Below, one piece after another: positions 2 through 36,293 of a stretch of 36,293 nt of DNA. The stretch covers positions 1 to 36,293 of the IMG/VR virus record IMGVR_UViG_3300034374_000327; one strand, given 5' to 3'. Within the stretch, counting starts at the first letter, position 1; every line of letters starts with the position of its first letter. The translations under genes and the position numbers were made by a program. This DNA is from a virus. A model generated the notes under the pieces. That model made no database searches and was not told the DNA's origin. It saw only the letters and a list, made by a program, of their open reading frames with translations.

Positions 2-637
2 CTTAGTTTAGTAGAAAGTTGGATAGTAGAGGACAAGGTACACGACAAATCTGTAAAATACGGAATGGATTTACCTTTAGGAACGTGGGTTGGAAGTGTT
101 AAGGTAAACAACGAGCAAATCTGGAATGAGTTTGTAAAGACAGGTAAGGTTAAAGGGTTTAGTATTGAGGGGTATTTCGCTGATAAGATGGAACGCCCAC
201 AGGAAAAAATAAACGACTTTAGTAGTGATGAACTATTAAAAGAAATAGACCAAGACGAAGCGGAGTATTTACTTAGCGAGATACGAGCCATCATAAAAAA
301 CGATAAGCGAGTAAAGGGTGGCAAAAAGATGGTTTTGGAAAGTTATACCGATTATCCAAGTGGTGTAAAGAACAACGCTAAAAGAGGTTTAGAATTAAAC
401 GAAAAAGTAAACAACAAATGCGCAACGCAAGTAGGCAAGGTAAGGGCGCAACAATTAGCACAAGGCAAACCTATTAGTTTAGAAACTATTAAGCGAATGT
501 ATTCCTATTTGTCAAGAGCAGAGGAATACTATGACGAAAGCGACACAACCGCTTGTGGAACTATTTCATATTTATTATGGGGTGGTAAGGCAGGATTACG
601 TTGGGCAAATAGTAAATTAAAAGAATTAGATGCGTAA
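2..637 (+). CDS. Prohead protease (XkdF-like) with C-terminal phage domain, 5'-truncated
   Basis: This is the C-terminal two thirds of the protein encoded intact at 29020-29976. The frame is open from base 2, so the ATG at 65 is internal and not a start. The retained part includes the probable catalytic serine in VKGFSIEGYF and the distal domain with YPSGVKNNAKRG and CGTISYLLWGGKAGLRWA; the catalytic histidine lies upstream of the window. Such proteases cleave scaffold and capsid protein during head maturation. The C-terminus (LKELDA) differs from copy B (LNKLNNK), exactly where copy B has an extra gene. Its stop overlaps the ATG of the next small gene at 630. Confidence 0.9.
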   Translation, partial: LSLVESWIVEDKVHDKSVKYGMDLPLGTWVGSVKVNNEQIWNEFVKTGKVKGFSIEGYFADKMERPQEKINDFSSDELLKEIDQDEAEYLLSEIRAIIKNDKRVKGGKKMVLESYTDYPSGVKNNAKRGLELNEKVNNKCATQVGKVRAQQLAQGKPISLETIKRMYSYLSRAEEYYDESDTTACGTISYLLWGGKAGLRWANSKLKELDA

Positions 638-1542: not shown

Positions 1543-1548
1543 AAATGC

Positions 1549-1578
1549 AAAATTAATTTTTAACCATTATATATTAAT
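1549..1578 (+). promoter_or_regulatory. 30-nt AT-rich upstream element, scaffold gene (copy A)
   Basis: The element begins AAAATTAATTTTTAACC and ends TTATATATTAAT immediately before the ATG. Its length and ends match those before 3872, 21718 and 29020. It may be a late promoter, a leaderless start signal or a translation enhancer. Confidence 0.5.
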
Positions 1579-3171: not shown

Positions 3172-3194
3172 AATTAATTAACTAACTAACGTAG

Positions 3195-3226
3195 AAAGGG
3201 GTGGGGAATTTGCCCTACCCTTTTTT
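3195..3226 (+). terminator. Rho-independent terminator after major capsid gene
   Basis: AAAGGGGTGGGG pairs with CCCTACCCTTTT across a six-base loop (AATTTG), followed by a run of T. The stem is kept in copy B although the loop differs, which supports a functional RNA hairpin. Confidence 0.85.
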
Positions 3227-3247
3227 ATTTAAAAACACTTTAAAAAT

Positions 3248-3775
3248 ATGGCTTGTTCATTAACTACAGGAAGAAAAGTACCTTGCAAAAGCGCAGTAGG
3301 TGGTATTAAAACTATTTACTTTGCTGATTTTGGTACTTTAGGCGAAGCAACTATCGCTGCAGGTGAAATTACTGCTTTAGCAGGTACGCCAGAATGGTTT
3401 CAATTTGATGTAAAAGGAAATTCATCTTTAGAAACCGCTATAAATTCTTCTCGTGAGAATGGTACTACTTTTTATGAAAGTACACTAAACTTAACTTTGA
3501 CTTTCCAAGACAAAGCGACACAAGAAGAACTAAAACTAATTGCACACGCAAGACCACACATTGCTATCGAGGACTATAACGGAAACTATTTTCTTATGGG
3601 CTTAGAACACGGAGCTGATGTAAATGGTGGAACTATCGTAACAGGTGCAGCTATGGGGGATTTAACAGGATATACAATTACAGCGGTTGCACAAGAAACT
3701 GCGCCACCTTATTTTGTAACACCTGCGGTTATTACTGATGATGCTTCTGCAACACAGATTGACCCAACTGCATAA
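3248..3775 (+). CDS. Putative tail tube (major tail) protein
   Basis: This 175-residue beta-rich protein has no signal peptide or enzyme motif. It sits shortly after the capsid gene as its own unit, with terminators on both sides, as expected for a protein made in large amounts. The segment LTLTFQDKATQEELKLIAHA and the ending MGDLTGYTITAVAQETAPPYFV resemble tail tube subunits (small beta barrels forming rings), but I base this on recall and context. The C-terminal 20 residues look like a flexible extension. Copy B is at 33422-33949. A head completion protein is the main alternative. Confidence 0.65.
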   Translation: MACSLTTGRKVPCKSAVGGIKTIYFADFGTLGEATIAAGEITALAGTPEWFQFDVKGNSSLETAINSSRENGTTFYESTLNLTLTFQDKATQEELKLIAHARPHIAIEDYNGNYFLMGLEHGADVNGGTIVTGAAMGDLTGYTITAVAQETAPPYFVTPAVITDDASATQIDPTA

Positions 3776-3794
3776 TAAATTAGGGTTTTAAATT

Positions 3795-3826
3795 AAAGGG
3801 TTATCTTTTTAGGTAGCCCTTTTTTT
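3795..3826 (+). terminator. Rho-independent terminator after tail tube gene
   Basis: AAAGGGTTA pairs with TAGCCCTTT (one G-T pair) around a T-rich loop, followed by seven T. The stem is identical at 33969-34000 in copy B. Confidence 0.8.
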
Positions 3827-3841
3827 ATATGCATACAATAC

Positions 3842-3871
3842 AAAATAATTTAGTTTTGTTTATATATTAAT
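3842..3871 (+). promoter_or_regulatory. 30-nt AT-rich upstream element, gene 3872 (copy A)
   Basis: Runs AAAATAATTTAG...GTTTATATATTAAT up to the ATG. It lies directly after a terminator, so a new transcript must start near here if the portal operon is to be expressed. This favours a promoter role. Confidence 0.55.
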
Positions 3872-4222
3872 ATGAAGCTAATAACTACAAGCGGTAATAA
3901 GACCTTTAAGATAATACCACGACAATATATTGAGGGTGCAATTACTGTAAATTTAACAAGTGAAAGCACAGGCGCAAATGTAAGTGTAACACCAACTGCA
4001 ACTACTGATAAAAACTATATGAGTTTTAATGCGGTTTTTGGAACACTAACGGAAGGCGATTTTTACATTTTAGAAGTTAAAAACGGAAGTGCAGTAATAT
4101 ACAAAGACAAAGTATTTTGCACAGACCAAACAATAAACCAAACTAACAACGATTACTACTCTATCAATAAAGATGAGTATGTACAAGAAGATAGTTTTGA
4201 TAACGATTACATTATATTATGA
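3872..4222 (+). CDS. Conserved structural-region protein (116 aa), function unknown
   Basis: A 116-residue protein of beta-sandwich type: N-terminal strands (NKTFKIIPRQYIEGAITVNL), then an ending rich in Asn and Asp (NNDYYSINKDEYVQEDSFDN). The YYSINKDEY motif is one I recall from Bacteroidota phages next to portal genes, without known function. It is the first gene after the terminator at 3795-3826, and its stop overlaps the portal ATG by four bases (ATGA), so the two are probably co-translated. Copy B (34046-34396) differs at one residue, N to D near position 52. A head-tail or neck component is possible. Confidence 0.7.
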   Translation: MKLITTSGNKTFKIIPRQYIEGAITVNLTSESTGANVSVTPTATTDKNYMSFNAVFGTLTEGDFYILEVKNGSAVIYKDKVFCTDQTINQTNNDYYSINKDEYVQEDSFDNDYIIL

Positions 4223-6039
4223 ATGATTTAAGAGTAGTTAATTTAAGCACCTATACAAGCCCAGAGATTGTAGAAAAATCAAATAAGGAGTGGGTGGCGT
4301 ATGGTACTGATAACAATTATTTTAGTTATCTAATAGACCGTTACAATGGTAGCCCTACAAATAACGCTATTATAAATGGTATTAGTGAGATGATATACGG
4401 AAAAGGTTTAAGTGCTTTAGACAGCAACAGAAAACCTGAAGCGTATGCTAAAATGATGACTTTATTTCACAAGGATTGTGTGCGTAAATTGTGCTATGAC
4501 CTTAAACTTATGGGTCAATGCTCGATGCAGGTTATATACTCAAAAGACCGCAAGACTGTGGCACAAGTAGAACATATCCCTGTTGAGAATTTAAGAGCCG
4601 AGAAATGCAACGAAAAGGGCGAGATAGAAGCGTATTACTACTCTGATGATTGGAGTAAAGTTAAGAACGTAAAGGACTGCACAAGAATACCTACTTTTGG
4701 TTACTCAAAAGAAGCTATTGAGATTGTGTATGTAAAGCCATACAGAGCAGGATATAAATACTATTCAAGTCCAGACTATCAAGGTGGATTACAATATGCA
4801 GAGTTAGAAGAAGAAATATCCAACTACCACTTAAACAACATACTTAACGGACTTGCACCGAGTATGCTTATCAACTTCAACAATGGTACGCCTAATGCAG
4901 AGGAACGCCAAATGTTAGAAAATAGAATATATCAAAAGTTTAGTGGAAGTAGTAACGCAGGTAAGTTTATTTTAGCGTTTAACGATAACCCAGAGAGTGC
5001 TGCAACGATTGAGCCAATACAATTAAGTGAAGCGCATAACCAATACCAATTCCTAAGTGATGAGAGTGGTAAAAAAATTATGGTAGCACATAGGGTTGTA
5101 AGTCCTATGTTATTAGGTATTAAAGACAGTAGCGGTTTAGGAAATAATGCAGACGAATTAAAGACCGCAAGTATTCTAATGGATAACACCGTTATTAGAC
5201 CTTTTCAGACACTTTTAATAGATGCCTTTGATAGTATATTAGCTTATAATAATATTAGCTTAAAACTATATTTTAAGACGTTACAACCTTTAGAGTTTAC
5301 AGACTTAGAAAACGTAGTAGACGAAGAAACACGAGAGGAAGAAACAGGCGTAAAACTTAGTCAAGAATTACCAGACGAATTAGGTAGCGATATTGCTGAT
5401 GCGTTAATAGACTTAGGACAAGACGAAGAAGAACTACTAAAAGAGTTTGAGGTAATAGACGAAAGAGAGGTAAACTATGACGAAGAAGAGGGTTTAGATG
5501 AGGTAATAACAGACCTTAACCAACCTAAAGACAAAAGTTTACTATCTAAAATATGGGAGTTTGTAAGTACAGGAAGTGCAAAACCTTATAGAGAGAGTGA
5601 GCAAGATGGTACAAGCAAACAAACAAAAGAAGAAGGGAACGAGTTTCTTGTAAGATATATGTATAGCCCTGCACGAACTAAAGCAACTTCAAGACAATTC
5701 TGTTCTAAAATGGTAAGTGCCAAAAAGGTATACCGTAAAGAGGACATTGTAGCTATGGAAAACAAAGCTGTAAATGCAGGATTTGGTAAGGGTGGTAGTG
5801 ACACTTATAGCATTTGGCTTTATAAAGGCGGTGCGAGATGCAGCCATAAATGGCTTCGTAAGACGTATGTACGCAAAGATGGTGCAAAAGGTTTAGGTAG
5901 TGAAATAAGTACAACAGAGGCAAGAAAACGAGGTTTTAAGCCAGAGGCAAACGCAAAAAAAGTACCTGTTGCACCAAAGGATATGAAGTATAAGGGTTAT
6001 ACAGCAGAGTATTGGAACAAAATGAAATTTAGAAACTAA
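4219..6039 (+). CDS. Portal protein with C-terminal Cys-containing extension
   Basis: Residues 1 to about 360 look like a phage portal: NNYFSYLIDRYNGSPTNNAI near the N-terminus, YGKGL, and VVSPMLLGIKDSSGLGNNAD near 295-315. The portal ring forms the DNA entry vertex and docks TerL. An acidic linker (about 360-460) leads to a distinct basic domain (about 472-606) with SPARTKATSRQFCSKM and KGGARCSHKWLRKTY; such domains are often fused to portal or MuF-type minor head proteins. The length (606) exceeds a typical portal because of this extension. The gene is far from TerL, unlike most siphophages. Copy B at 34393-36213 has the same length and about a dozen substitutions. Confidence 0.88.
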   Translation: MNDLRVVNLSTYTSPEIVEKSNKEWVAYGTDNNYFSYLIDRYNGSPTNNAIINGISEMIYGKGLSALDSNRKPEAYAKMMTLFHKDCVRKLCYDLKLMGQCSMQVIYSKDRKTVAQVEHIPVENLRAEKCNEKGEIEAYYYSDDWSKVKNVKDCTRIPTFGYSKEAIEIVYVKPYRAGYKYYSSPDYQGGLQYAELEEEISNYHLNNILNGLAPSMLINFNNGTPNAEERQMLENRIYQKFSGSSNAGKFILAFNDNPESAATIEPIQLSEAHNQYQFLSDESGKKIMVAHRVVSPMLLGIKDSSGLGNNADELKTASILMDNTVIRPFQTLLIDAFDSILAYNNISLKLYFKTLQPLEFTDLENVVDEETREEETGVKLSQELPDELGSDIADALIDLGQDEEELLKEFEVIDEREVNYDEEEGLDEVITDLNQPKDKSLLSKIWEFVSTGSAKPYRESEQDGTSKQTKEEGNEFLVRYMYSPARTKATSRQFCSKMVSAKKVYRKEDIVAMENKAVNAGFGKGGSDTYSIWLYKGGARCSHKWLRKTYVRKDGAKGLGSEISTTEARKRGFKPEANAKKVPVAPKDMKYKGYTAEYWNKMKFRN

Positions 6040-6540
6040 ATGGCAACAGCATTATTTATAAGCACAACAGACCTTAAAAAAAATTCTATTATTGATGGCA
6101 ACGTTGATATAGATAAAATGATACAGTTTGTTAAGGTAGCCCAACAAATAGATATTCAGAATTTGTTAGGTACGGATTTATACAACAAAATTAGCGCAGA
6201 TATAATTGCGGATAATTTAAGTGGCAATTATTTAACGTTGGTAAACACTTATGTACAACCTGCATTAATTTGGTTTGCTCAAATGAACTACATACCATTT
6301 GCAGCTTATACGATTACAAACAAATCTGTTCTTAAACACAGTTCAGAAACAGCACAGAACGTAGACAAAAACGAAGTAGATTATTTAGTATCTAAGGCAA
6401 GGGAATACGCTAACTATTATAGTACACGCTTAGTAGATTATTTGTGTTTTAACAATAACTTATTCCCAGAGTATTTAAGCAATACAAACGAGGATATAAG
6501 CCCTGATAGTGATACGACGTATCGAGGGTGGGTGCTTTAA
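6040..6540 (+). CDS. Head-tail connector (gp6-like, DUF6712-type)
   Basis: This helical protein of 166 residues follows the portal with no gap. Its central motif VAQQIDIQNLLGTDLYNKI and the long helical second half are typical of the connector proteins that sit below the portal in Bacteroidota phages (I recall DUF6712). It would form the ring between portal and tail terminator. The C-terminus (SDTTYRGWVL) is short and polar. The window end at 36214-36293 contains the first 26 codons of the same gene from copy B, identical in protein there. Confidence 0.75.
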   Translation: MATALFISTTDLKKNSIIDGNVDIDKMIQFVKVAQQIDIQNLLGTDLYNKISADIIADNLSGNYLTLVNTYVQPALIWFAQMNYIPFAAYTITNKSVLKHSSETAQNVDKNEVDYLVSKAREYANYYSTRLVDYLCFNNNLFPEYLSNTNEDISPDSDTTYRGWVL

Positions 6541-6549
6541 TTATATATT

Positions 6550-6684
6550 ATGCGATATAAAGTAAAACAAACAAACCTTAACAAACTAAAAAAATATATT
6601 GATGCCGATACCAAAACCAAAAGCGAACGAGAAGCAAAGCGATTTTATGATGAGGTGTGTAGCACAAATAAGCAAAGAGTATAA
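6550..6684 (+). CDS. Possible small basic ORF (44 aa), overlaps 6602-6736
   Basis: An ATG preceded by TTTAATTATATATT opens 44 codons (MRYKVKQTNLNKLKKYIDAD...), rich in Lys and Arg. It overlaps the better supported ORF at 6602-6736 in another frame for most of its second half. The upstream TATATATT resembles the end of the 30-nt late element, but the front half of that element is missing. It may be a real overlapping gene, or only a leader whose translation brings ribosomes to the next start. Confidence 0.35.
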   Translation: MRYKVKQTNLNKLKKYIDADTKTKSEREAKRFYDEVCSTNKQRV

Positions 6685-6736
6685 AAAAGACCAAGCCATA
6701 GCAATATGCTATCAAAAATGGAAAGATAATGAGTAA
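6602..6736 (+). CDS. Small conserved phage protein (44 aa, MPIPKP..F..C motif)
   Basis: The 44 residues begin MPIPKPKANEKQSDFMMRCV and contain AIAICYQKW near the end. This pattern (Pro/Lys start, DF..RC, then Q..AICY..W) recurs in phages, alone or at one end of a protease or head protein, so I trust this frame over the overlapping one at 6550. Function is unknown; a role in head assembly is suggested only by its usual neighbours. Its stop overlaps the ATG of the fibre gene at 6729 by eight bases. Confidence 0.7.
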   Translation: MPIPKPKANEKQSDFMMRCVAQISKEYKKDQAIAICYQKWKDNE

Positions 6737-7922
6737 CCCTAAATTAGCACTAATACCAAGCGGATATAAAAGCGGTAAAGTATATTCTATTTTGCCTAAT
6801 GATGCTACAGGAGATTTTGACTTTGATAGAGCAAGTGAGGGTACACGAGTACGCAAAGATGGACTAATTGAAGAGGTTACAAATGATGTACCGAGATTAG
6901 ATTGGTTAAATAGCAACTGTCCAAGCTTGAAACTTGAGCCACAACGAACAAACCTACAAGTGTATTCAGAAGAGTTTGATAATGGAGTTTGGGTAAAATC
7001 AAGAACAACAATAACCGCCAATGATACAATTTCGCCTAATGGGGAATTAACTGCCGACAAAATAACAGGCGATGGAACAGGAACTTCTTATGTTTATGAC
7101 GGCATATCTTTAACGAATGGCAATACATATACAATATCAATTTTCGTAAAACCTATTATAAATATTTCTTCTTTTGCTATTAACGTTTTTGGTGGTGTTG
7201 GAACTGCATATTTTGATTTAATCAATAAAACTATATATACACCAACAGGCGATTTTACAAGTGCTAAAATAGAAGATTATGGAAATGGTTGGTTGAGGTG
7301 TAGTGGAACTTTAACTTTGTCATCGGCAACAGGAAGTAAAAACATTGGTTATGGTTTAATTGATTTTAATGGCGACCAATACTATTTATGGGGTGCTCAA
7401 GTAGAACAAGGCGATTATGCCTCAAGCTATATAAAAACAGAAGCAAGTACAGTAACAAGATTAAAAGATGAAATTTTAGCTGAAGATAGTAATTTATTTG
7501 ATATTACAGAGGGTACTTTGTTTGTAGATGCAACACCATTTAAAAGTGGCGGTGGTATGGAAATACAATTAAGTGATGGTACTGCAAGTAATAGACATAC
7601 AATTCAATATCAAGGTACAGGAACAAGTGTTAGGGCTTTAACTGTTACAGGGGGAGGTACACCTGTATTTAGTGATTTTAACCCTTTAACATTTGATATA
7701 AGAAATAAATTAGCTATTACGTTTAAAAAAGATGAGTTTAAATTTTATGTCAATGGTAGTTTAGTACATACTGACTTACTTGGCGATGTACCAACAGGAT
7801 TGGATAAATTAACTTTTTCAAACCCTAATTTAACAGATAATTTTATGGAGGGTAAAATTCACGATACAAGAGTTTACGATAGAGTATTAACAGAAGCAGA
7901 AGCAATAGAATTAACAACTTAA
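6729..7922 (+). CDS. Receptor-binding / fibre protein with lectin-like domains
   Basis: A 397-residue protein. The N-terminal module has FDFDRASEGTRVRKDGLIEE (about 31-50). A carbohydrate-binding-type beta sandwich starts at LEPQRTNLQVYSEEF (about 69) and ends with WGAQVEQGDYASSYI (about 220). The last 150 residues look like a concanavalin/LamG lectin fold (FYVNGSLVHTD, HDTRVYDRVLTEAEAIEL). These modules are typical of phage proteins that bind host surface glycans. It is a shorter paralogue of the next gene. No trimerisation or cleavage motif is visible. A tail fibre or head spike are both possible. Confidence 0.75.
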   Translation: MSNPKLALIPSGYKSGKVYSILPNDATGDFDFDRASEGTRVRKDGLIEEVTNDVPRLDWLNSNCPSLKLEPQRTNLQVYSEEFDNGVWVKSRTTITANDTISPNGELTADKITGDGTGTSYVYDGISLTNGNTYTISIFVKPIINISSFAINVFGGVGTAYFDLINKTIYTPTGDFTSAKIEDYGNGWLRCSGTLTLSSATGSKNIGYGLIDFNGDQYYLWGAQVEQGDYASSYIKTEASTVTRLKDEILAEDSNLFDITEGTLFVDATPFKSGGGMEIQLSDGTASNRHTIQYQGTGTSVRALTVTGGGTPVFSDFNPLTFDIRNKLAITFKKDEFKFYVNGSLVHTDLLGDVPTGLDKLTFSNPNLTDNFMEGKIHDTRVYDRVLTEAEAIELTT

Positions 7923-7923
7923 T

Positions 7924-10332
7924 ATGGCACAAGAAATATATCATAGAAGCGAATGGGGAAACCCTAACGAACAATGGGGAAACGTTTACTTAAACGCTGA
8001 CTTAACAAATGAGTTATATAAAAGAGCAAGTGAGTACGAGAACTCGTGGGTAACAGACCAACTATTAAACGGAGTAGGCACAAAGCCGAGTATTATTCTA
8101 ACCCCTACTGCTTATGAAGATGGCGTATTGAATAGTGTTAAACCTGTTCAATCTTTAGGTAATGAGTTAATTACAAATGGTGATTTTTCAACCGATAGCG
8201 GTTGGAGTTATGGAAGTTCTTGGAGTATTGCTAATGGTAAGGCTACTGCAACAAATTCAACAACAGGGAGCATATATCAAGATATTTTAGATACGTCAAA
8301 AATATATAAAGCTACATTTGAAATAACAGAAATAACAAGTGGCAGTTTAAGAATTGGCATTGGTGTAAATTTTAGTGATTATTTTACTTCAACAGGTGTT
8401 TATACTTATTATGGGCAACCAACCACTGATGGTCTTTTAAGAATAAATCCATTAAGTGGAACAAACGCTTCAATAGACAATGTAAGTGTAAAAGAAGTAA
8501 TAGACGCAGACTTTGACTTTACAAGAGGGTCAAGTGCGACAAGAGTTAACGAATTAGGTTTAGTACAAGATGTACAGTTATTAAGCGGAGAATTAATACA
8601 GAACGGAGACTTTGAGCAGATAGGAAGTGAACTTGTTACAAATGGTGGGTTTGATAGTGATACTGATTGGACTAAACAAACAGGTTGGTCTATTAGTGGT
8701 GGAGTAGCTAATTATGATTTTACTTCGGATGCTAAATATATAAGACAAACTTTATTAAGTGGGGGTTTTGTATCAGGAAAAACTTATCGAATTAATTTTG
8801 AAATAACTTCAGGAACTGCCTATATGTACATAAATTCAAACGGTGGTAGTCTTATTAGTCTTAATACTTATAGCGTAGGTAGTTATTCATTATACACAAC
8901 TGCATCAGCTAATGGTAGTGATTTATTAATATATGGTAGAAATACAAGTGGTTCTGCTTTCTCAATAGACAACGTATCTGTTAAGGAAGTAGGGCAGAAT
9001 TGGTTATTTCAGAATGGTTGGAATATGGGAGATGGTGTTGCAGTTTATAGCGGTACTGTAAGTGCATATAGAACAATATACCAAGAAAATGTTTTAACTG
9101 TAAGTAGTAAATATAGATTAACATTTGATATTGTATCAATAGCATCAGGAAGTATTGAAAACATATCGCAAAGTAGTCCTACAAGTTATAGCACAGTAGG
9201 TACAAAAACAGAAGATTTTATTGCCACAAATACAGATTTATTTTTAAAGCCAACAACAGATGCGGATTTAACAATAGACAACATATCAGTAGTAGAAATA
9301 ACAGACGATACAGACTTGCCGAGAATAAATTATACTAACTTTGATTATGAGGATGGAGAAGTAGTACCTTATAGCGGAGAGGGTAGTCTTTTGCTTGAGC
9401 CACAGAGTACAAATCTTGTAACGTATTCAGAAGATTTTAGTCAGTGGAATGCTAATGAAGTAACAACACAAACAGGATTTTTAGCACCCGATGGAAGTAA
9501 TAATGCAATAAAAATAACTTCCACAGGCTCTCAATCTTATCTTGTTTTAAGTGGATTAAGTTTAACAGGAACAGATACAAGAACTATTTATGCAAGAACA
9601 GTTAGTGGTAGTGGTACTGTAAATTTATGTAGTTATGGTCAAAACACAAATAATAATTTTACTATAACACCACAATGGCAAAGATTTGAAGTGAATGGCA
9701 CTACAACTGCAACAGGAGAGCCAAATTTTTATGGAGTAGATTTTAGGTTTGCAGAAGCTAATCCTTTAACAGAAGTTATTATATGGGGCGCACAAGCAGA
9801 GGCACTATCATACGCTACATCCTACATACCAACAAACGGAAGTACTACCACTCGTTTAGCAGATGTCTGTAACAATAGTGGCAGTAGCGACTTAATAAAC
9901 TCAACAGAGGGTGTGCTATATGCGGAGATATCTTCTTTAATTGACAATAATGATGGCTCTAAATCAATATCTATTTCAAGTGGAGCTTATTCTAATAATA
10001 TAATTATACAATATTCTACAAACACAAATCAAATAGTATTTAAAACATCACCAAGTTATACAACGCCAATATATCAACCTTTTACTGTTTCAAATATAAC
10101 CGAAAGTTCAAAAATTGCTTTTAAATATAAACTTGATGATTGTTCCTTTTGGCATAATGGAGTGAAATTAGGTAGCGTAACATCTTTTACTCCTTTTTCA
10201 TTTGGAACATTAACAGTTTTAAATTTTGATAGAGGTGATGGAAATGAAAAATTTGAGGGCAAATGCAAATGCGTTGCAGTATTTAAAGAAGCATTGAGTG
10301 ATACAGAATTACAAAAATTAACAACTATATAA
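7924..10332 (+). CDS. Large receptor-binding / fibre protein with three tandem carbohydrate-binding-like repeats
   Basis: An 802-residue protein. After a short N-terminus come three related beta-sandwich units: about 79-192 (NELITNGDFSTDSGW to IDNVSVKEV), 233-356 (SELVTNGGFDSDTDW to IDNVSVKEV) and 359-459 (to IDNISVVEI). The first is followed by FDFTRGSSATRVNELGLVQD. Next comes a CBM unit from LEPQSTNLVTYSEDF (about 492) to WGAQAEALSYATSYI (about 621), then a lectin-like C-terminus ending FKEALSDTELQKLTTI. The repeats resemble CBM4/9-type modules. It probably mediates adsorption to capsule or surface polysaccharide. It shares its frame modules with 6729-7922, so the pair arose by duplication. 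Confidence 0.75.
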   Translation: MAQEIYHRSEWGNPNEQWGNVYLNADLTNELYKRASEYENSWVTDQLLNGVGTKPSIILTPTAYEDGVLNSVKPVQSLGNELITNGDFSTDSGWSYGSSWSIANGKATATNSTTGSIYQDILDTSKIYKATFEITEITSGSLRIGIGVNFSDYFTSTGVYTYYGQPTTDGLLRINPLSGTNASIDNVSVKEVIDADFDFTRGSSATRVNELGLVQDVQLLSGELIQNGDFEQIGSELVTNGGFDSDTDWTKQTGWSISGGVANYDFTSDAKYIRQTLLSGGFVSGKTYRINFEITSGTAYMYINSNGGSLISLNTYSVGSYSLYTTASANGSDLLIYGRNTSGSAFSIDNVSVKEVGQNWLFQNGWNMGDGVAVYSGTVSAYRTIYQENVLTVSSKYRLTFDIVSIASGSIENISQSSPTSYSTVGTKTEDFIATNTDLFLKPTTDADLTIDNISVVEITDDTDLPRINYTNFDYEDGEVVPYSGEGSLLLEPQSTNLVTYSEDFSQWNANEVTTQTGFLAPDGSNNAIKITSTGSQSYLVLSGLSLTGTDTRTIYARTVSGSGTVNLCSYGQNTNNNFTITPQWQRFEVNGTTTATGEPNFYGVDFRFAEANPLTEVIIWGAQAEALSYATSYIPTNGSTTTRLADVCNNSGSSDLINSTEGVLYAEISSLIDNNDGSKSISISSGAYSNNIIIQYSTNTNQIVFKTSPSYTTPIYQPFTVSNITESSKIAFKYKLDDCSFWHNGVKLGSVTSFTPFSFGTLTVLNFDRGDGNEKFEGKCKCVAVFKEALSDTELQKLTTI

Positions 10333-29019: not shown

Positions 29020-29976
29020 ATGCGAATAGTAGAATTAATCTTAGACGAAGAACAAGAAATAGGTATTGAAGCTATTAGCGTAGTGGAAAACCCTGCAATA
29101 GAAGAGGATTTTATAGCTTTAAAATCACAAGAATTTAAACTTGCAGAGGTAGACAAAGAAAAGCGTATTTTAATGGGTGCGTTATTAATACCTAATAAGC
29201 CCATATACAGACGAAATGGCGAGGACGAATACTACATATATTTCTCAAAAGATACTGTATTAAAAGCATCGCAAATGTACCTTATGCAAGGTAAACAAAA
29301 TAACTCAACCTTAGAACACCAATACGAAATAAACGGACTTAGTTTAGTAGAAAGTTGGATAGTAGAGGACAAGGTACACGACAAATCTGTAAAATACGGA
29401 ATGGATTTACCTTTAGGAACGTGGGTTGGAAGTGTTAAAGTAAACAACGAGCAAATCTGGAATGAGTTTGTAAAGACAGGTAAGGTAAAAGGGTTTAGCA
29501 TAGAAGGTTATTTTGCTGATAAAATGGAACGCCCACAGGAAAAAATAAACGACTTTAGTAGTGATGAACTATTAAAAGAAATAGACCAATACGAAGCGGA
29601 GTATTTATTGAGTGAGATACGAGCCATCATAAAAAACGACAAGCGAGTAAAGGGTGGTAAGAAGATGGTGTTAGAAAGCTACTCGGATTATCCAAGTGGC
29701 GTAAAGAACAACGCAAAGAGAGGTTTAGAACTAAACGAAAAGGTAAACAACAAATGCGCTACACAAGTAGGCAAGGTAAGGGCGCAACAATTAGCGCAGG
29801 GTAAACCTATTAGCGTAGAAACTATAAAACGTATGTATTCCTATTTGTCAAGAGCAGAGGAATACTATGATGAAAGCGATACAACCGCTTGTGGTACAAT
29901 CTCTTATTTATTATGGGGTGGTAAGGCAGGATTACGTTGGGCTGAAAGTAAATTAAACAAACTAAATAATAAATAA
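29020..29976 (+). CDS. Prohead protease (XkdF-like serine protease) with C-terminal phage domain
   Basis: The complete 318-residue form. The protease part (1 to about 170) has VVENPAIEEDF at 22-32, His100 in STLEHQYEINGLSLVESW and Ser160 in KVKGFSIEGYFADKM, as expected for XkdF/S78-type prohead proteases. After a charged linker, residues 212-318 form a second domain with YPSGVKNNAKRGLELNEKV, CATQVGKVRAQQLAQGKPIS and CGTISYLLWGGKAGLRWA, which occurs in many phage head proteins and may bind DNA or capsid. The enzyme matures the prohead by cutting scaffold. Copy A at 2-637 is the truncated allele. Confidence 0.9.
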   Translation: MRIVELILDEEQEIGIEAISVVENPAIEEDFIALKSQEFKLAEVDKEKRILMGALLIPNKPIYRRNGEDEYYIYFSKDTVLKASQMYLMQGKQNNSTLEHQYEINGLSLVESWIVEDKVHDKSVKYGMDLPLGTWVGSVKVNNEQIWNEFVKTGKVKGFSIEGYFADKMERPQEKINDFSSDELLKEIDQYEAEYLLSEIRAIIKNDKRVKGGKKMVLESYSDYPSGVKNNAKRGLELNEKVNNKCATQVGKVRAQQLAQGKPISVETIKRMYSYLSRAEEYYDESDTTACGTISYLLWGGKAGLRWAESKLNKLNNK

Positions 29977-29977
29977 A

Positions 29978-30358
29978 ATGAGCAGAGAAAAAGCACTAAA
30001 ATTAATTAATGAGTATTTAGCAAAACAAGAGCCGATAAAAGTAGAATTGGCTTTAGATACTGAATTAAAAAACATTGAGCAAAAAGCACAGAGTATATTT
30101 AATGATGGTCGTAGAGATGCAGAACAAGAAGTTTTAAATGGTGCTGCTAAAATGGAACAAGCAAAGAAAAGTTTGCAAAAACTACAAAAAGACATAGATA
30201 ACGCTTATGCTGATGGCAAAAGAAAGGCAAAAGATATAGGAATTGATTTAGATAGTACAACTGTAGGAAAAAATTTTAAAAGAGCATTTTCTGACGTAGA
30301 GGATTATATTATATCATCACAAACAGCAATTACTAAGCTTAGAAAATTTAGAGTGTAA
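29978..30358 (+). CDS. Cassette gene 1, coiled-coil protein (126 aa), present only in copy B
   Basis: A helical, charged protein inserted between the protease and the small basic gene. The middle is a long coiled coil (AEQEVLNGAAKMEQAKKSLQ...). It shares a layout with the second cassette gene at 31296: KVELALDTELKNIEQKA near residue 22 (there KVELGVVQDFNKVASRL) and GIDLDSTTV followed by a D-x-E-D-helix near the end. Copy A lacks it entirely, so it is not needed for the head. It may be a minor head or injected protein, or a moron-like gene. Confidence 0.65.
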   Translation: MSREKALKLINEYLAKQEPIKVELALDTELKNIEQKAQSIFNDGRRDAEQEVLNGAAKMEQAKKSLQKLQKDIDNAYADGKRKAKDIGIDLDSTTVGKNFKRAFSDVEDYIISSQTAITKLRKFRV

Positions 30359-30361
30359 ATA

Positions 30362-30487
30362 ATGCGTAAGGTAGCGGTTAAAATAGAACGCAAAAGAGTA
30401 AAGCGTAAAGGCATACACGCTAAAAGCAAAACAAGTCAATTAAAGTCAAGTAAGAACTATAAGAAACTAAATAGGGGACAGGGTTGA
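30362..30487 (+). CDS. Small very basic phage protein (41 aa), copy B
   Basis: Same ORF as 630-755, with Val to Ile at one position (KGIHAKSK). In copy B it starts four bases after the cassette gene stop, while in copy A it overlaps the protease stop. Its conservation across the two strains, with silent changes elsewhere, supports it as a coding gene. Role unknown. Confidence 0.75.
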   Translation: MRKVAVKIERKRVKRKGIHAKSKTSQLKSSKNYKKLNRGQG

Positions 30488-30696
30488 AACGATTAAAAAG
30501 ATTTTTTACACCAAGTAGAACAAGTCCAAAAGGAGGACGTAGGGCTTGTTTATGTGAGGATAACACCTATTCTATAAAGTGTTGTGATGGTAGTTTAAGG
30601 GCGCAAGGGATAGGTAGTACAGTAAGTCCTAACTTTTTAGCACAAGAAAATAGTGATTTAATACTTCAAGAAAATAACGATAAAATTATAACATAA
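30484..30696 (+). CDS. Conserved small Cys-rich phage protein (70 aa), copy B
   Basis: Protein identical to that of 752-964, although the DNA differs at silent positions (for example GGTGGGCGT versus GGAGGACGT). This is direct evidence of purifying selection on the CLC...KCC protein. The TTG start and overlaps are the same. Confidence 0.82.
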   Translation: MKRLKRFFTPSRTSPKGGRRACLCEDNTYSIKCCDGSLRAQGIGSTVSPNFLAQENSDLILQENNDKIIT

Positions 30697-31274
30697 TGGC
30701 AAACCAAAAAATAAGCGAATTAACAGAAGTAACAACTGTTACAAATGATGATGTTTTAGCTATTGTTAATGGTGGGCAAACTAAAAAAATTACTGTTTCT
30801 GATTTAGTAGCTTATAACCAATTAGGGTGGAATAGATTTGACGATACGGTTTATACTTCTTCAAATAAACTAAGTTTAGCTGATGGGGTTAAAGTTACAC
30901 TACCTAACAACGGAGGTAATACTGTAACGAGTGGCGATTATACTTTTTATGATACTGCAACTAATAAGTTTTTAGGTGTTAATACCAATGATGCTTATGT
31001 GCTAACTATTGTATTTAAGTCGTCTGCTGCAAATTCAAATAATACACATTTAGAATTTTCTTTAGAGGGTAGCGGTGATATAGAGCGAGTTAATCAGTCT
31101 ATGGCATATTACAAAGGAAACGATACAACACAAAATTTTCACAGTTTATTTCAATATTATACTGATGCTGATTTTGTAGCTAATGGAGTAACACCAAAAA
31201 TAACCGCAATAGGTGGTACTGCTTTAATTTGGGATATAATATTTTTTATACAAAGAACACAAAGATATATTTAA
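30696..31274 (+). CDS. Putative decoration or fibre-type structural protein (192 aa), copy B
   Basis: Near-identical to the product of 964-1542, with differences such as EVVSVTND versus EVTTVTND and NNVTSG versus NTVTSG. It has the same KISELT...TKKIT opening module. Here it is followed by cassette gene 2 instead of the scaffold gene. Confidence 0.7.
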   Translation: MANQKISELTEVTTVTNDDVLAIVNGGQTKKITVSDLVAYNQLGWNRFDDTVYTSSNKLSLADGVKVTLPNNGGNTVTSGDYTFYDTATNKFLGVNTNDAYVLTIVFKSSAANSNNTHLEFSLEGSGDIERVNQSMAYYKGNDTTQNFHSLFQYYTDADFVANGVTPKITAIGGTALIWDIIFFIQRTQRYI

Positions 31275-31295
31275 ACAACTATAAATTAAAACAAA

Positions 31296-31715
31296 ATGAG
31301 AAATTTTAAAAACGCTTTAAAGCATATTAACAAAGAAGAATTATCTACTCAAAAGGTTGAGTTAGGGGTTGTTCAAGATTTTAATAAAGTGGCTTCAAGA
31401 TTAACAAGTGGTAGTAAAAACCTAAATTCAGCTGCACAAAAATTTGTTGATGATTTATCTGATTTTGGCAAATTAAGAAATAAACTTGACCAGTCTTTTG
31501 GAAGAGCGGAAGCGTTTGCAGACCAGATTGAAGAAGATGTTAAACTAATTCAAAAAATAGCTGACGAAATTGCAGAAAAATCAAAAGAACTTGGAGTACA
31601 GCCAAAAGAATTAGGTATTGATGTTAATGTTATAAAGGTTGTAGATGATATTGAAGATACGATTAGAACAATACGAAAAAACACTTCTGATGCAAAAAAA
31701 ATAATAAATATCTAA
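31296..31715 (+). CDS. Cassette gene 2, coiled-coil protein (139 aa), present only in copy B
   Basis: A helical, charged protein with TQKVELGVVQDFNKVASRLT at the start and a long coiled coil in the middle (KLRNKLDQSFGRAEAFADQI...EKSKELG). It ends with QPKELGIDVNVIKVVDDIED and a basic helix. KELGID...V.DIED resembles the end of cassette gene 1 (KDIGID...DVED), so the two may be distant paralogues. It is inserted cleanly before the late element of the scaffold gene. The flanks ATATTTAAA and ATATCTAAA are alike, a possible recombination microhomology. Confidence 0.65.
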   Translation: MRNFKNALKHINKEELSTQKVELGVVQDFNKVASRLTSGSKNLNSAAQKFVDDLSDFGKLRNKLDQSFGRAEAFADQIEEDVKLIQKIADEIAEKSKELGVQPKELGIDVNVIKVVDDIEDTIRTIRKNTSDAKKIINI

Positions 31716-31721
31716 AAATAC

Positions 31722-31751
31722 AAAATTAATTTTTAACCATTATATATTAAT
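31722..31751 (+). promoter_or_regulatory. 30-nt AT-rich upstream element, scaffold gene (copy B)
   Basis: Identical in all 30 bases to 1549-1578, although codons on both sides differ between the copies. It was kept after the cassette was gained or lost just upstream. Confidence 0.55.
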
Positions 31752-32360
31752 ATGAACACGAACGATATGATTAGTAAAATCAAAGAAGTTCTAAACTTAT
31801 CCGAAGAGGTTAAGTTGGAACAACAAGCGTTAGAAAACGGAACTGTTTTAGAGGCAGAAGCGTTTGAAGAGGGTAACGAAGTATTTATTGTTACTGAAGA
31901 TGAAAAAGTAGCTGTTCCTGTTGGTGAATACCAATTAGAGGACGGACGTATTTTAGTAGTAGCCGAAGAGGGGTTAATTGCAGAGATTAAAACCGAAGAA
32001 GCGGAAGAAGAAGAAACCGAAGAAGTAGAGGTTGAAGCTGCCGAAGAAGAAAAAGAGGTTTACGCTACTAAAGAAGAACTTGCTGAGGTTAAATCAATGC
32101 TTGAAGAAATTAAAGCAATGTTAGAGCCAAAAGAAGATTTAAGCGCAGATGAATTAGGAAACCTTGTAACAGAGGAACTTTGTAAACACGAAAAAGTGGA
32201 ACTAAGCGAAGTGCCAGAGGAAGTACAAGAGGAACTTAACCAACCTGCTGCAGAGCCAATTAAGGCAAACCCAGAAACAAAACAAAACCTATCTAAATTC
32301 AATATCTCACAAAACAGAAGAATGAGTACATTGGATAGAGTAATGGCAAAATTTAATTAA
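31752..32360 (+). CDS. Head scaffold / capsid assembly protein, copy B
   Basis: A 202-residue allele of 1579-2190. The acidic tract and basic C-terminus (SQNRRMSTLDRVMAKFN) are kept. Changes cluster in the variable parts (EAGKEIF to EEGNEVF, EAKDEEKE to EAAEEEKE). One residue shorter at the end. Confidence 0.85.
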   Translation: MNTNDMISKIKEVLNLSEEVKLEQQALENGTVLEAEAFEEGNEVFIVTEDEKVAVPVGEYQLEDGRILVVAEEGLIAEIKTEEAEEEETEEVEVEAAEEEKEVYATKEELAEVKSMLEEIKAMLEPKEDLSADELGNLVTEELCKHEKVELSEVPEEVQEELNQPAAEPIKANPETKQNLSKFNISQNRRMSTLDRVMAKFN

Positions 32361-32396
32361 TAAATAAACTAATAAACAACTAAAAACTAAAATAAA

Positions 32397-33344
32397 ATGA
32401 GTGTATCAATTACTTCAACTTATGCAGGTGAATTTAGTGGCAAGTATATCGCTGCTGCTTTGTTATCTGCTGACACATTAGACAAAGGCGGTATTACTGT
32501 AATGCCTAATGTAAAATTTAAGTCAGTACTTAAAAAGGCGTCTACTGATGCTATCGTAAAGGACGCTACTTGTGATTTTCAAACAGGACAGGGTACTTTA
32601 ACACTAACTGAAAAAATCCTACAACCAGAGGAATTTCAAGTAAACCTTGACATTTGTAAAAAAGATTTGCATAGCGATTGGGAAGCTGCTCAAATGGGAT
32701 ATTCTGCATTTGACAACCTACCTTCAAACTTTTCTGATTTTGTATTGGCTCACGTTGCTGCAAAAGTAGCAGACCGTACAGAAAGAAACATTTGGACAGG
32801 TGATACAGGAACTTCAGGTCAATTTGATGGGTTTTCTACTTTATTAGCTGCAGATGCTGATTTACCTGCTGCTAACGAAATTGCAGGAACAACTGTAGAT
32901 GCTTCAAACGTAGTTGCACAACTTGGTTTGATTGTAGATGCTATCCCTTCTGCTGTTTATGGTAAAGAAGATTTACATATTTACGTTGCACAAAACATCT
33001 ATCGTGCTTATGTTCGTGCTTTAGGTGGATTTGGTGCTGCAGGTGTTGGTGCTAACGGTTATGACAATAAAGGAAACAACCAAGTACTTGGTGATTTGTT
33101 CTTTGATGGTGTTAAGTTATTTCCAACTGCTGGACTTGCTGACAACACTGCTATTGCAGCTGAAAAGTCAAACTTGTTCTTCGGTACAGGATTGTTAAAC
33201 GACCTTAACGAGGTAAGAGTTATTGATATGGCTGAAACTGACGGAAGCCAAAACGTAAGAGTTGTAATGCGATTTACAAGTGGTGTACAATATGCTCAAG
33301 TAGGGGATATTGTTACTTATGGTATCACAAACTCTGCAAACTAA
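32397..33344 (+). CDS. Major capsid protein, copy B
   Basis: A 315-residue allele of 2215-3171. The conserved core EKILQPEEFQVNLDICKKDLH and the C-terminal strands are unchanged. Differences lie in the N-arm (VNIVSSSYSGEF versus VSITSTYAGEF), a shortened loop after IWTGDT, and near AEIDGSMN versus AETDGSQN. These positions are expected to be exposed on a capsid. Confidence 0.88.
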   Translation: MSVSITSTYAGEFSGKYIAAALLSADTLDKGGITVMPNVKFKSVLKKASTDAIVKDATCDFQTGQGTLTLTEKILQPEEFQVNLDICKKDLHSDWEAAQMGYSAFDNLPSNFSDFVLAHVAAKVADRTERNIWTGDTGTSGQFDGFSTLLAADADLPAANEIAGTTVDASNVVAQLGLIVDAIPSAVYGKEDLHIYVAQNIYRAYVRALGGFGAAGVGANGYDNKGNNQVLGDLFFDGVKLFPTAGLADNTAIAAEKSNLFFGTGLLNDLNEVRVIDMAETDGSQNVRVVMRFTSGVQYAQVGDIVTYGITNSAN

Positions 33345-33366
33345 TAATAATTAATTAATCAACGTG

Positions 33367-33400
33367 AAAAGGGGTGGGGAGATTTGCCCTACCCTTTTTT
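33367..33400 (+). terminator. Rho-independent terminator after major capsid gene, copy B
   Basis: AAAAGGGGTGGGG pairs with CCCTACCC and the T-run. The stem is as in copy A while the loop is AGATTTG instead of AATTTG. Confidence 0.85.
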
Positions 33401-33421
33401 ATTTAAAAACACTTTAAAAAT

Positions 33422-33949
33422 ATGGCTTGTTCATTAACTACAGGAAGAAAAGTACCTTGCAAATCGGCAGTAGGTGGTATTAAAACTATTTACTTTGCTG
33501 ATTATGGTACTTTAGGCGATGCTACTATTGTAGCAGGGGAAATTACTGCATTAGCAGGTACGCCTGATTGGTTTCAATTTGATGTTAAAGGTAATTCATC
33601 TTTAGAAACCGCTATAAATTCTTCTCGTGAAAATGGTACTACTTTTTATGAAAGTACACTTAACCTAACTTTGACCTTTCAAGACAAAGCGACACAAGAA
33701 GAACTAAAACTAATTGCACACGCAAGACCACACATTGCTATCGAGGACTATAACGGAAACTATTTCCTTATGGGATTAGAACACGGTGCTGATGTAAATG
33801 GTGGAACTATCGTAACAGGTGCAGCTATGGGGGATTTAACAGGATATACAATTACAGCGGTTGCACAAGAAACTGCACCGCCTTATTTTGTAACATCTAC
33901 TGTTATTACTGATGATGCTTCTGCAACACAAATAGACCCAACTGCATAA
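33422..33949 (+). CDS. Putative tail tube protein, copy B
   Basis: A 175-residue allele of 3248-3775 with about seven substitutions (DFGTLGEATIAAG versus DYGTLGDATIVAG, TPAVITDD versus TSTVITDD). The long middle from QFDVKGNSSLETAINSSREN to AVAQETAPPYFV is unchanged, pointing to a structural constraint. Confidence 0.65.
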   Translation: MACSLTTGRKVPCKSAVGGIKTIYFADYGTLGDATIVAGEITALAGTPDWFQFDVKGNSSLETAINSSRENGTTFYESTLNLTLTFQDKATQEELKLIAHARPHIAIEDYNGNYFLMGLEHGADVNGGTIVTGAAMGDLTGYTITAVAQETAPPYFVTSTVITDDASATQIDPTA

Positions 33950-33968
33950 TAAATTAGGGTTTTAAATT

Positions 33969-34000
33969 AAAGGGTTATCTTTTTAGGTAGCCCTTTTTTT
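33969..34000 (+). terminator. Rho-independent terminator after tail tube gene, copy B
   Basis: Same AAAGGGTTA...TAGCCCTTT stem and T-run as at 3795-3826. Confidence 0.8.
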
Positions 34001-34015
34001 ATACACATACAATAC

Positions 34016-34045
34016 AAAATAATTTAGTTTTGTTTATATATTAAT
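34016..34045 (+). promoter_or_regulatory. 30-nt AT-rich upstream element, gene 34046 (copy B)
   Basis: Identical to 3842-3871, directly after a terminator. Confidence 0.55.
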
Positions 34046-34396
34046 ATGAAGCTAATAACTACAAGTGGTAATAAAACCTTTAAGATAATACCAAGACAAT
34101 ATATTGAGGGTGCAATTACTGTAAATTTAACAAGTGAAAGCACAGGCGCAAATGTAAGTGTAACACCAACTGCAACTACTGATAAAAACTATATGAGTTT
34201 TGATGCGGTTTTTGGAACACTAACAGAGGGCGATTTTTACATATTAGAAGTTAAAAACGGAAGTGCAGTAATATACAAAGACAAAGTATTTTGCACCGAC
34301 CAAACAATAAACCAAACTAACAATGATTACTACTCTATTAATAAAGATGAGTATGTACAAGAGGATAGTTTTGATAATGATTATATTATATTATGA
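34046..34396 (+). CDS. Conserved structural-region protein (116 aa), copy B
   Basis: One residue differs from the product of 3872-4222 (SFNAVFG to SFDAVFG), while several codons differ silently. This is the most strongly conserved gene of this length in the block. It overlaps the portal start by four bases. Confidence 0.7.
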   Translation: MKLITTSGNKTFKIIPRQYIEGAITVNLTSESTGANVSVTPTATTDKNYMSFDAVFGTLTEGDFYILEVKNGSAVIYKDKVFCTDQTINQTNNDYYSINKDEYVQEDSFDNDYIIL

Positions 34397-36213
34397 ACGA
34401 TTTAAGAGTAGTTAATTTAAGTACATATACAAGCCCAGAGATTGTAGAAAAATCAAATAAGGAGTGGGTGGCGTATGGTACTGATAACAATTATTTTAGT
34501 TATCTAATAGACCGCTATAATGGTAGTCCTACAAACAATGCTATTATAAATGGTATTAGTGAAATGATTTACGGCAAAGGTTTAAGTGCTTTAGACAGCA
34601 ACAGAAAGCCAGAGGCGTATGCTAAAATGATGACTTTATTTCACAAGGATTGTGTGCGTAAATTGTGCTATGACCTTAAACTTATGGGGCAATGCTCGAT
34701 GCAGGTTATATACTCAAAAGACCGCAAGACTGTGGCACGAGTAGAACATATCCCTGTAGAGAATTTAAGAGCCGAAAAATGCAACGATAAGGGCGAAATA
34801 GAAGCGTATTACTACTCTGATGATTGGACTAAAGTAAAGAACGTAAAGGACTGCACAAGAATACCTGCTTTTGGTTACTCAAAAGAAGCTATTGAGATTG
34901 TGTATGTAAAGCCATACAGAGCAGGGTATAAATATTATTCAAGTCCTGATTATCAAGGTGGGTTGCAATATGCGGAGTTAGAGGAAGAAATATCTAACTA
35001 TCACTTAAATAACATACTTAATGGACTTGCACCAAGTATGCTTATCAACTTCAACAATGGCACACCGAACGCAGAGGAACGCCAAATGTTAGAAAATAGA
35101 ATATATCAAAAATTTAGCGGAAGTAGTAATGCTGGAAAATTTATACTCGCCTTTAATGACAACCCAGAAAGCGCAGCAACTATTGAGCCAATACAATTAA
35201 GCGACGCTCATAACCAATACCAATTCTTAAGTGATGAGAGTGGTAAAAAGATTATGGTAGCACACAGGGTTGTAAGTCCTATGTTATTAGGTATTAAAGA
35301 CAGTAGCGGTTTGGGGAACAATGCTGATGAATTAAAGACTGCAAGTATTCTAATGGATAACACCGTTATAAGACCATTTCAGACACTTTTAATAGATGCC
35401 TTTGATAGTATATTAGCTTATAATAATATTAGCTTAAAACTATATTTTAAGACGTTACAACCTTTAGAGTTTACGGACTTAGAAAACGTAGTAGACCAAG
35501 AAACACGAGAGGAAGAAACAGGTGTAAAACTTAGTCAAGAATTACCAGACGAATTAGGTAGCGATATTGCAGATGCTTTAATAGACTTAGGACAAGACGA
35601 AGAAGAACTACTAAAAGAGTTTGAGGTAATAGACGAAAGAGAGGTAAACTATGACGAAGAAGAGGGTTTAGATGAGGTAATAACAGACCTTAACCAACCT
35701 AAAGACAAAAGTTTACTATCTAAAATATGGGAGTTTGTAAGTACAGGAAGCGCAAAACCTTATAGAGAGAGTGAGCAAGACGGTACAAGTAAACAAACAA
35801 AAGAAGAAGGAAACGAGTTTTTAGTACGCTATATGTATAGCCCTGCACGAACTAAAGCAACTTCAAGACAATTTTGTTCTAAAATGGTAAGTGCTAAAAA
35901 GGTATATAGAAAAGAGGATATTGAAGCTATGGAAAACAAAGTAGTAAATGCAGGATTTGGTAAGGGTGGTAGTGATACTTATTCTATATGGCTTTACAAA
36001 GGTGGTGCAAGATGTAGCCATAAATGGCTAAGAAAGACTTATGTACGCAAAGAGGGTGCAAAGAGTTTAGGAACTGAAATAAGTACAACAGAGGCAAGAA
36101 AACGAGGTTTTAAACCAGAAGCGAATGCACAGAAAGTGCCTGTTGCACCAAAGGATATGAAATACAAAGGTTATACAGCAGAGTATTGGAACAAAATGAA
36201 ATTTAGAAACTAA
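34393..36213 (+). CDS. Portal protein with C-terminal Cys-containing extension, copy B
   Basis: A 606-residue allele of 4219-6039 with the same portal core, acidic linker and basic C-terminal domain (SPARTKATSRQFCSKM, GGARCSHKWLRK). Of the dozen or so substitutions, about half fall in the last 60 residues (for example DIVAMENKAV to DIEAMENKVV, KDGAKGLGSE to KEGAKSLGTE). The extension therefore varies more than the portal core. Both cysteines are kept. Confidence 0.88.
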   Translation: MNDLRVVNLSTYTSPEIVEKSNKEWVAYGTDNNYFSYLIDRYNGSPTNNAIINGISEMIYGKGLSALDSNRKPEAYAKMMTLFHKDCVRKLCYDLKLMGQCSMQVIYSKDRKTVARVEHIPVENLRAEKCNDKGEIEAYYYSDDWTKVKNVKDCTRIPAFGYSKEAIEIVYVKPYRAGYKYYSSPDYQGGLQYAELEEEISNYHLNNILNGLAPSMLINFNNGTPNAEERQMLENRIYQKFSGSSNAGKFILAFNDNPESAATIEPIQLSDAHNQYQFLSDESGKKIMVAHRVVSPMLLGIKDSSGLGNNADELKTASILMDNTVIRPFQTLLIDAFDSILAYNNISLKLYFKTLQPLEFTDLENVVDQETREEETGVKLSQELPDELGSDIADALIDLGQDEEELLKEFEVIDEREVNYDEEEGLDEVITDLNQPKDKSLLSKIWEFVSTGSAKPYRESEQDGTSKQTKEEGNEFLVRYMYSPARTKATSRQFCSKMVSAKKVYRKEDIEAMENKVVNAGFGKGGSDTYSIWLYKGGARCSHKWLRKTYVRKEGAKSLGTEISTTEARKRGFKPEANAQKVPVAPKDMKYKGYTAEYWNKMKFRN

Positions 36214-36293
36214 ATGGCAACAGCATTATTTATAAGCACAACAGACCTTAAAAAAAATTCTATTATTGATGGCAACGTTGATATAGATAAAAT
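36214..36293 (+). CDS. Head-tail connector, 3'-truncated by the window end (copy B)
   Basis: The first 26 codons of the 6040-6540 connector gene (MATALFISTTDLKKNSIIDG...). The DNA of the 80 bases present agrees with copy A. Confidence 0.85.
   Translation, partial: MATALFISTTDLKKNSIIDGNVDIDK

Follow-up and report, generated by a model that had tools for sequence, protein, structure and literature searches.

The internal proteins of T4 (IPI/Ip1, Ip2 and Ip3) are small, optional and encoded several to a genome, in a phage that encodes its own head protease. In the passages that describe them, Ip1 to Ip3 have only the leader in common, are injected, and each block a particular GmrSD enzyme; their leaders, of 10-19 residues, are capsid targeting sequences that gp21 removes (PMC9026906, PMC12373910). 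Ejection proteins of SPN3US and phiKZ are described with an N-terminal propeptide, removed there by the prohead protease (PMC5694885), and the crassvirus phicrAss001 is described as a Bacteroides phage that stores protein cargo in its head (PMC10172136). Here we examine two genes in a head operon, at 29978-30358 and 31296-31715 of a 36,293-base virus record (IMG/VR record IMGVR_UViG_3300034374_000327; this whole stretch is the window). With moderate confidence we read both as head cargo cassettes, each encoding a predicted capsid-targeting leader that would be cut off by a protease and a body that would be delivered to the host as T4 internal proteins are. The proteins are called cargo below on that reading. 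The start of the record overlaps its end, and the operon copies found there are called A and B, respectively.

29978..30358, plus strand: slot-1 candidate cargo gene, 126 amino acids; an open reading frame (ORF) with 34 related loci, absent from copy A
29978..30049, plus strand: leader of slot 1 (24 codons), with KVEL as its last four residues (30038-30049); it hardly varies among 15 aligned slot-1 proteins, although their bodies diverge
31296..31715, plus strand: slot-2 candidate cargo gene, 139 amino acids; an ORF with 11 related loci, absent from copy A
31296..31364, plus strand: leader of slot 2 (23 codons), with KVEL as its last four residues (31353-31364); an alignment of 11 slot-2 proteins shows it to be conserved

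The original prediction, made from the letters of the window, had pointed to a shared KVEL start, a long coiled coil, and a KxxGID and D-x-E-D end, and both proteins have the motifs together with a long predicted helix. KVEL occupies residues 21-24 of the slot-1 protein and 20-23 of the slot-2 protein; the paired motifs read K-D-I-G-I-D with D-V-E-D in the former and K-E-L-G-I-D with D-I-E-D in the latter. AlphaFold places helices at 3-86 and 95-123 of the slot-1 protein (predicted local distance difference test score 89, predicted template-modeling score 0.59) and at 2-99 and 112-137 of the slot-2 protein (80 and 0.47). By pairwise BLASTP the two are only weakly alike, with an expect value (E) of 0.032 over the full length and 0.004 for the bodies, and a profile-profile comparison built on 15 slot-1 and 11 slot-2 relatives relates them with 98.5% probability (E 1.5e-15). 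Since the leader alone might drive this similarity, the comparison was also run with leaders removed, and the bodies still match over 73 columns (97.5%, E 7.3e-12). Among the controls, 20 column-shuffled profiles gave 0.3% or less and a reversed profile 12.3% (E 0.0024). The suspected relationship is thus clear at the profile level, with or without leaders. Because the two bodies fall in separate clusters (single-linkage, BLASTP E<1e-4), the genes are, as judged by sequence comparison, distant homologues and not recent duplicates.

It had also been claimed that both genes are missing from copy A while their neighbors are kept. The alignment of the two copies (1-6119 against 29337-36293, 92-96%) consists of three pieces, pairing 1-621 with 29337-29957 at 92.8%, 630-1543 with 30362-31275 at 96.0%, and 1535-6119 with 31708-36293 at 92.3%. 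It is interrupted at the two genes, and the flanking genes are retained in copy A.

622..629, no strand: empty slot 1 of strain A, at an alignment break
1543..1578, no strand: empty slot 2 of strain A, at an alignment break

A tandem duplication inside one phage was considered for this layout and rejected as the likely reading: contig L123 (IMGVR_UViG_3300022187_000238), 99.9% identical to copy B, continues beyond the portal gene into sequence 100% identical to window positions 6120-9167. Since L123 links copy B to that region, the record most likely consists of about 6 kb from strain A followed by a genome unit of strain B, whose length is about 30.17 kb (34393 minus 4219). Copy A is most likely the sequence of a second strain at the record start rather than another operon belonging to one phage. 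Both genes are also found in L002, from the same contig as L123 (99.9% over 12,316 bases), and in L003, from a different contig (99.97% over 6,385 bases), so the insertions are not an assembly error of this record.

The family extends well beyond the window. We collected 139 distinct cargo sequences (96-211 amino acids, median 124) from a head operon of uncultured phages in which they occupy two slots, and in the layouts surveyed nearly every cargo gene lies between the protease and the scaffold. By the common plan, a variable helical body is preceded by a leader of some 24 residues that closes with K-V/I-E-L; the next residue is mostly A, G or S. Near the window's relatives, slot-1 leaders resemble MSREKALKRINEYLAKQEPQKVEL and slot-2 leaders resemble MSNYKRVLKHLNKEELSTQKVEL; groups farther away have different leaders. 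The bodies form 64 clusters (E<1e-6, 30% identity), and 109 of the 139 contain [KRQN][ED][LIV]G, a median of 38 residues before the protein end, against a mean of 5.1 in shuffles (maximum 12). To be called as cargo, an ORF had to reach 80 amino acids, contain a loosely defined junction motif and pass a limit on composition; as the motif took part in the selection, junction frequencies are partly circular. When slot proteins were taken irrespective of the motif, 78 of 82 had the junction by the loose pattern (those of L091, L127, L192 and L195 did not). Thirteen other unlabelled ORFs were set aside, two of which (in L205 and L291) have the appearance of cargo; that of L205 was included again in the identity-pair and 110-gene counts given below.

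The survey base of 310 loci (including the window itself and the cultured phage P12024L), plus the window, yielded 213 distinct scaffold genes, with the protease in view for 183 and both protease and middle gene in view for 170. In two of the scans for relatives the best 80 of about 600 matches were used, and in another 80 of 93; loci overlap among scans and were reduced to distinct scaffold genes, so that close strains are counted separately. Across the 170 genes, some of whose loci were fetched because they bear cargo, 72 have no cargo, 28 have slot 1 only, 37 slot 2 only, 21 one gene in each, and 12 two genes in one slot. For the 110 scaffold genes found via protease or capsid scans only, the split is 71 with neither slot filled, 8 with slot 1 only, 26 with slot 2 only (two of these holding two genes) and 5 with both, that is, slot 1 filled in 13 and slot 2 in 31. 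Empty-slot counts are upper bounds, since cargo was missed by the calling rules or, in places, by contig ends that cut the slots (L023, L038, L216). The genes had been predicted to be optional, and their presence is indeed far from fixed.

Leader and body have separate histories. Among phages with scaffolds at least 90% identical, the median identity is 95% for leaders and 26% for bodies at slot 1 (44 pairs, with bodies below 35% in 36) and 85% and 22% at slot 2 (108 pairs, with bodies below 35% in 99); shuffled bodies have a median of 16% and a 95th percentile of 25%. Across protein pairs, which are not independent of one another, leader identity follows scaffold identity with a rank correlation of 0.79 at slot 1 and 0.41 at slot 2 (0 of 500 permutations each), and body identity with one of 0.15 (0 of 500) and 0.04 (48 of 500). 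The break can be seen in DNA: from the window to L226, slot 1 is 90% identical upstream and 93% over codons 1-25, then unalignable for the remainder of the gene, and 88% identical downstream. Conversely, nearly identical bodies stand beside strongly diverged scaffolds, with a synonymous divergence (dS) of 0.018 for the body and 1.14 for the scaffold in L207/L211 and of 0.016 and 1.00 in L201/L205. The window's slot-1 body type occurs in slot 2 of L039 (39%, E 5e-16) and its slot-2 body type (65%) after the portal gene of the same locus; 10 of the 64 body clusters include both slots, and the same body is found with different leaders in L014/L122 and L020/L042. From these comparisons, leaders age with the phage backbone, and bodies move between phages and slots by recombination. 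The two genes had been taken for members of an exchangeable family, and the swapping of bodies between phage backgrounds and between slots bears this out. Rapid point mutation of the bodies, driven by positive selection, was also considered and is not seen: the ratio of nonsynonymous to synonymous divergence (dN/dS) has a median of 0.19 for bodies and 0.17 for scaffolds (59 usable of 63 pairs). Purifying selection at this level implies that the bodies do something, and points to maintained body types that are exchanged.

Genes that are both optional and exchangeable might merely reside in this operon, their products acting inside infected cells and being unconnected with the virion. That some copies lie outside the slots (after the portal gene in L039; L249; L299) would suit this, as would the lack of a consistent Pfam or PHROG family among 75 members. 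We nevertheless consider it quite improbable, because the leader is tied to scaffold divergence, the junction motif is common to cargo and scaffold, and most surveyed copies sit between the protease and the scaffold.

Two features described here go beyond the original prediction: the conserved front end that is separate from the exchanged body, and the occurrence of the KVEL junction in the scaffold as well. The window scaffold has KVELS at residues 148-152 and ends in STLDRVMAKFN. In the window, whose 47 ORFs comprise 10,976 residues, four ORFs contain [KS][VIL][ED]L[AGSTN], namely, the two cargo proteins and each strain's scaffold, of which only three are independent occurrences since the two scaffolds are orthologues. 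The scaffolds of at least seven loci (L167, L172, L173, L177, L179, L180 and L181) have E-V-E-L-S, and the cargo of these loci mostly has H-E-V-E-L (H-K-V-E-L in slot 2 of L181), with K-V-E-L elsewhere. Such matched variants fit a protease that cuts both proteins, but they could also stem from common ancestry. The propeptide of SPN3US gp47 is described as cleaved after AVE by the prohead protease (PMC5694885), which makes a cut after KVE plausible here; by prediction, a cut after KVEL is equally possible.

The leaders may also bear a partial likeness to the scaffold C-terminus. Against an 11-residue stretch there, 24 leader classes, which are not independent of one another, score 1.67 (shuffled -1.27, standard deviation 0.59; 0 of 2,000 as high); 0 of 100 column-permuted profiles reach the observed score, and a reversed control scores 0.07 (28 of 2,000), weaker than the observed value but not null. 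Derivation of the leader from the scaffold N-terminus, likely by eye, was negative by score. Cysteine is found once in 17,796 cargo residues and makes up 0.12% of scaffold residues and 0.8-1.3% of those of the protease, capsid protein, portal and a 175-amino-acid protein; its near-absence is no hallmark, because the 149- and 192-amino-acid proteins encoded before slot 2 are nearly cysteine-free too.

One alternative is that of accessory scaffold or core proteins, which would help build the head and then be cleared or degraded without delivery, like gp67 and gp68 of T4. The cargo proteins are helical, scaffold-adjacent and nearly cysteine-free like the scaffold, they share a body plan with a K-E-L-G motif, and their leaders may partly resemble the scaffold's C-terminal helix. 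We still judge this role rather unlikely, given that neither gene is present in 71 of the 110 relatives and that bodies differ within a near-same head operon, which is unexpected for a part that must fit the capsid. Proteins of the head surface or neck, whose variety would reflect outside contact, would agree with the head operon position and the high variety. The scaffold-like motif, the leader and the helical, cysteine-free plan make that reading very improbable, and the nearby beta-rich 149- and 192-amino-acid genes look, on inspection of their sequences, like better candidates for the surface.

Under the head cargo reading, the leader would bring its protein into the head during assembly through binding to the scaffold or the capsid lining, and the XkdF-type protease would cut at the KVEL junction, as it possibly does in the scaffold. 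The freed body would remain in the head with the DNA and pass into the host upon infection. There, the host targets would differ from one body type to another and would most likely be defenses. The original prediction had suggested ejected proteins or defense counters, and it is by analogy with T4 internal proteins that such functions may be proposed. Several results weigh against this proposal. Unlike T4 internal proteins, the bodies are built on one helical plan and commonly share K-E-L-G (109 of 139), which also fits an assembly role. Many relatives are without cargo (71 of 110). The motif count in the window is weak by itself, as shuffled window proteomes contain a mean of 1.2 motifs of this kind, with a maximum of 6 (the four motif ORFs make up 6% of residues), and it is the location that counts. 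A KVEL-like motif beyond residue 60 is present in only 54 of 127 scaffolds of relatives. Mimicry of the scaffold is partial, the window's own two leaders scoring -1.8 against the scaffold C-terminus, and no leader likeness to the scaffold N-terminus was found over 77 slot proteins (L111 having been dropped as a beta-type protein).

The likeness to T4 internal proteins, as these are described, lies in small, optional proteins encoded several to a genome alongside a head protease, and in a short conserved N-terminal leader with divergent bodies, a pattern found here by sequence. Presence varies among relatives in both (here, neither gene in 71 of 110, nor in strain A), and this likeness is one of presence variation only. 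In contrast to the T4 proteins, the bodies of the window family keep one helical plan, the leader is specific to its slot, the junction is KVEL, and the genes lie between protease and scaffold. Because no homology was found, the family is not classed with the T4 internal proteins. SPN3US and phiKZ, likened here by description only, have mostly far longer propeptides and are far larger phages. The cargo of phicrAss001, as described, consists of large proteins (60-277 kDa) that are broadly conserved across the viral order, with no leader-body exchange in that description (PMC10172136); cargo here is predicted. A tentative extension, to which we give less credence, is a T4-independent system of head-delivered effectors in small phages, modular as address, KVEL and payload, in which scaffold and cargo would share one protease site and helical payloads would circulate as a pool between lineages and slots, each type selected against a different host target. 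The address would possibly be changeable as well, given that a cysteine-rich N-terminal domain precedes the same junction in L265, L266, L269 and L310.

Database comparisons assign no known family. With tblastn at E 0.1, neither window protein matched any of 50,697 phage records (the inclusion of T4 there is unchecked); neither had a PHROG match below 0.03, and all Pfam scores were under the curated cut-offs. Tape measure, lysin, competence and similar families were rejected, as weak matches over 75 members scatter across 77 Pfam and 45 PHROG families, with a per-family maximum of 2 (Pfam) and 3 (PHROG) members; the best single match is DUF948 (E 1.4e-6, one member). The family profile matches designed bundles and viral or other coiled coils in the PDB, and no chain named as a T4 internal protein is among the best 60 of 72 matches. 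A fold search with the slot-1 model in a viral library gave a best E of 0.31, which is not significant, and we place no weight on the name of its top match, 'internal virion protein.' A search of GTDB genomes for prophage relatives, made with the capsid protein, gave 24 stretches that fit a pattern, none of which was confirmed. A literature search with few terms and partial coverage found no description of the family.

If the head cargo reading is true, leader-tagged, protease-released, exchangeable cargo exists in phages of about 30 kb as well and is not peculiar to T4 and giant phages. The payload pool (64 body clusters in 139 sequences) could then be mined for new defense inhibitors. The leader would give an easy sequence handle in the search for payloads, and it would be a candidate tag with which to load small capsids with proteins.

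The slots belong to an operon in the order XkdF-type protease, slot 1, small basic protein, 70-amino-acid protein, 192-amino-acid protein, slot 2, scaffold, probable capsid protein, further proteins and portal.

29020..29976, plus strand: XkdF-type head maturation protease, bordering slot 1 on its upstream side (PF14550, E 3.4e-14; N-terminal half of phrog_24921, E 5e-50)
30362..30484, plus strand: small basic protein, 41 amino acids, downstream border of slot 1; retained in copy A at 630
30484..30696, plus strand: 70-amino-acid protein with a TTG start, between the slots; an ORF with a copy A counterpart at 752-964
30696..31274, plus strand: 192-amino-acid protein, upstream border of slot 2 (phrog_8270, function unknown, E 5e-17)
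31752..32360, plus strand: scaffold, 202 amino acids (C-terminal half of phrog_24921, E 2e-9); fused to the protease in P12024L
32397..33344, plus strand: probable major capsid protein (phrog_1623, virion structural protein, E 6e-4; phrog_11320, E 8e-40; position; 31% to P12024L_02)
34393..36213, plus strand: portal protein (phrog_33693, E 9e-121)

The nearest cultured relatives found are the Nonlabens phages P12024L and P12024S (Inhavirus), with hosts given as Persicivirga (capsid protein 31%, portal 38%). Unlike the window phage, P12024L has protease and scaffold as a single 349-residue protein, so the slots do not exist there. In the window, the protease and the scaffold each align with one of the two halves of a single PHROG (phrog_24921), and the slots sit within the stretch that separates parts of what is one gene in P12024L.

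The genes around the slots vary in their own right. The 41-amino-acid protein is very basic, has no PHROG match and overlaps the 70-amino-acid protein, which is rich in cysteine and arginine and has no Pfam or PHROG match; strain A and many relatives retain both. Variation is also seen in the gene preceding slot 2, which encodes 192 amino acids here; in relatives it encodes a beta-rich-looking protein of 149 (e.g., L031:4794-5243) or is absent. The starts of the two proteins are similar (MANQKIS / MADKKIT). Where uncut by contig ends, the protease of relatives ranges from about 300 to 535 amino acids, and slot 1 accordingly has a variable upstream border as well. Cargo-like genes occur outside the slots downstream of the capsid gene (L249:3492-3920, 6738-7085 and 7085-7408; L299:1541-1972 and 4794-5141; L301:3501-3857), and there may be further cargo sites beyond the two slots. 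Upstream of the protease, cargo-like bodies at L265:1285-1857, L266:2352-2924, L269:2249-2908 and L310:2006-2521 are preceded by a KVEL-type junction and, ahead of it, an N-terminal domain rich in cysteine (MPCKKCKDG...).
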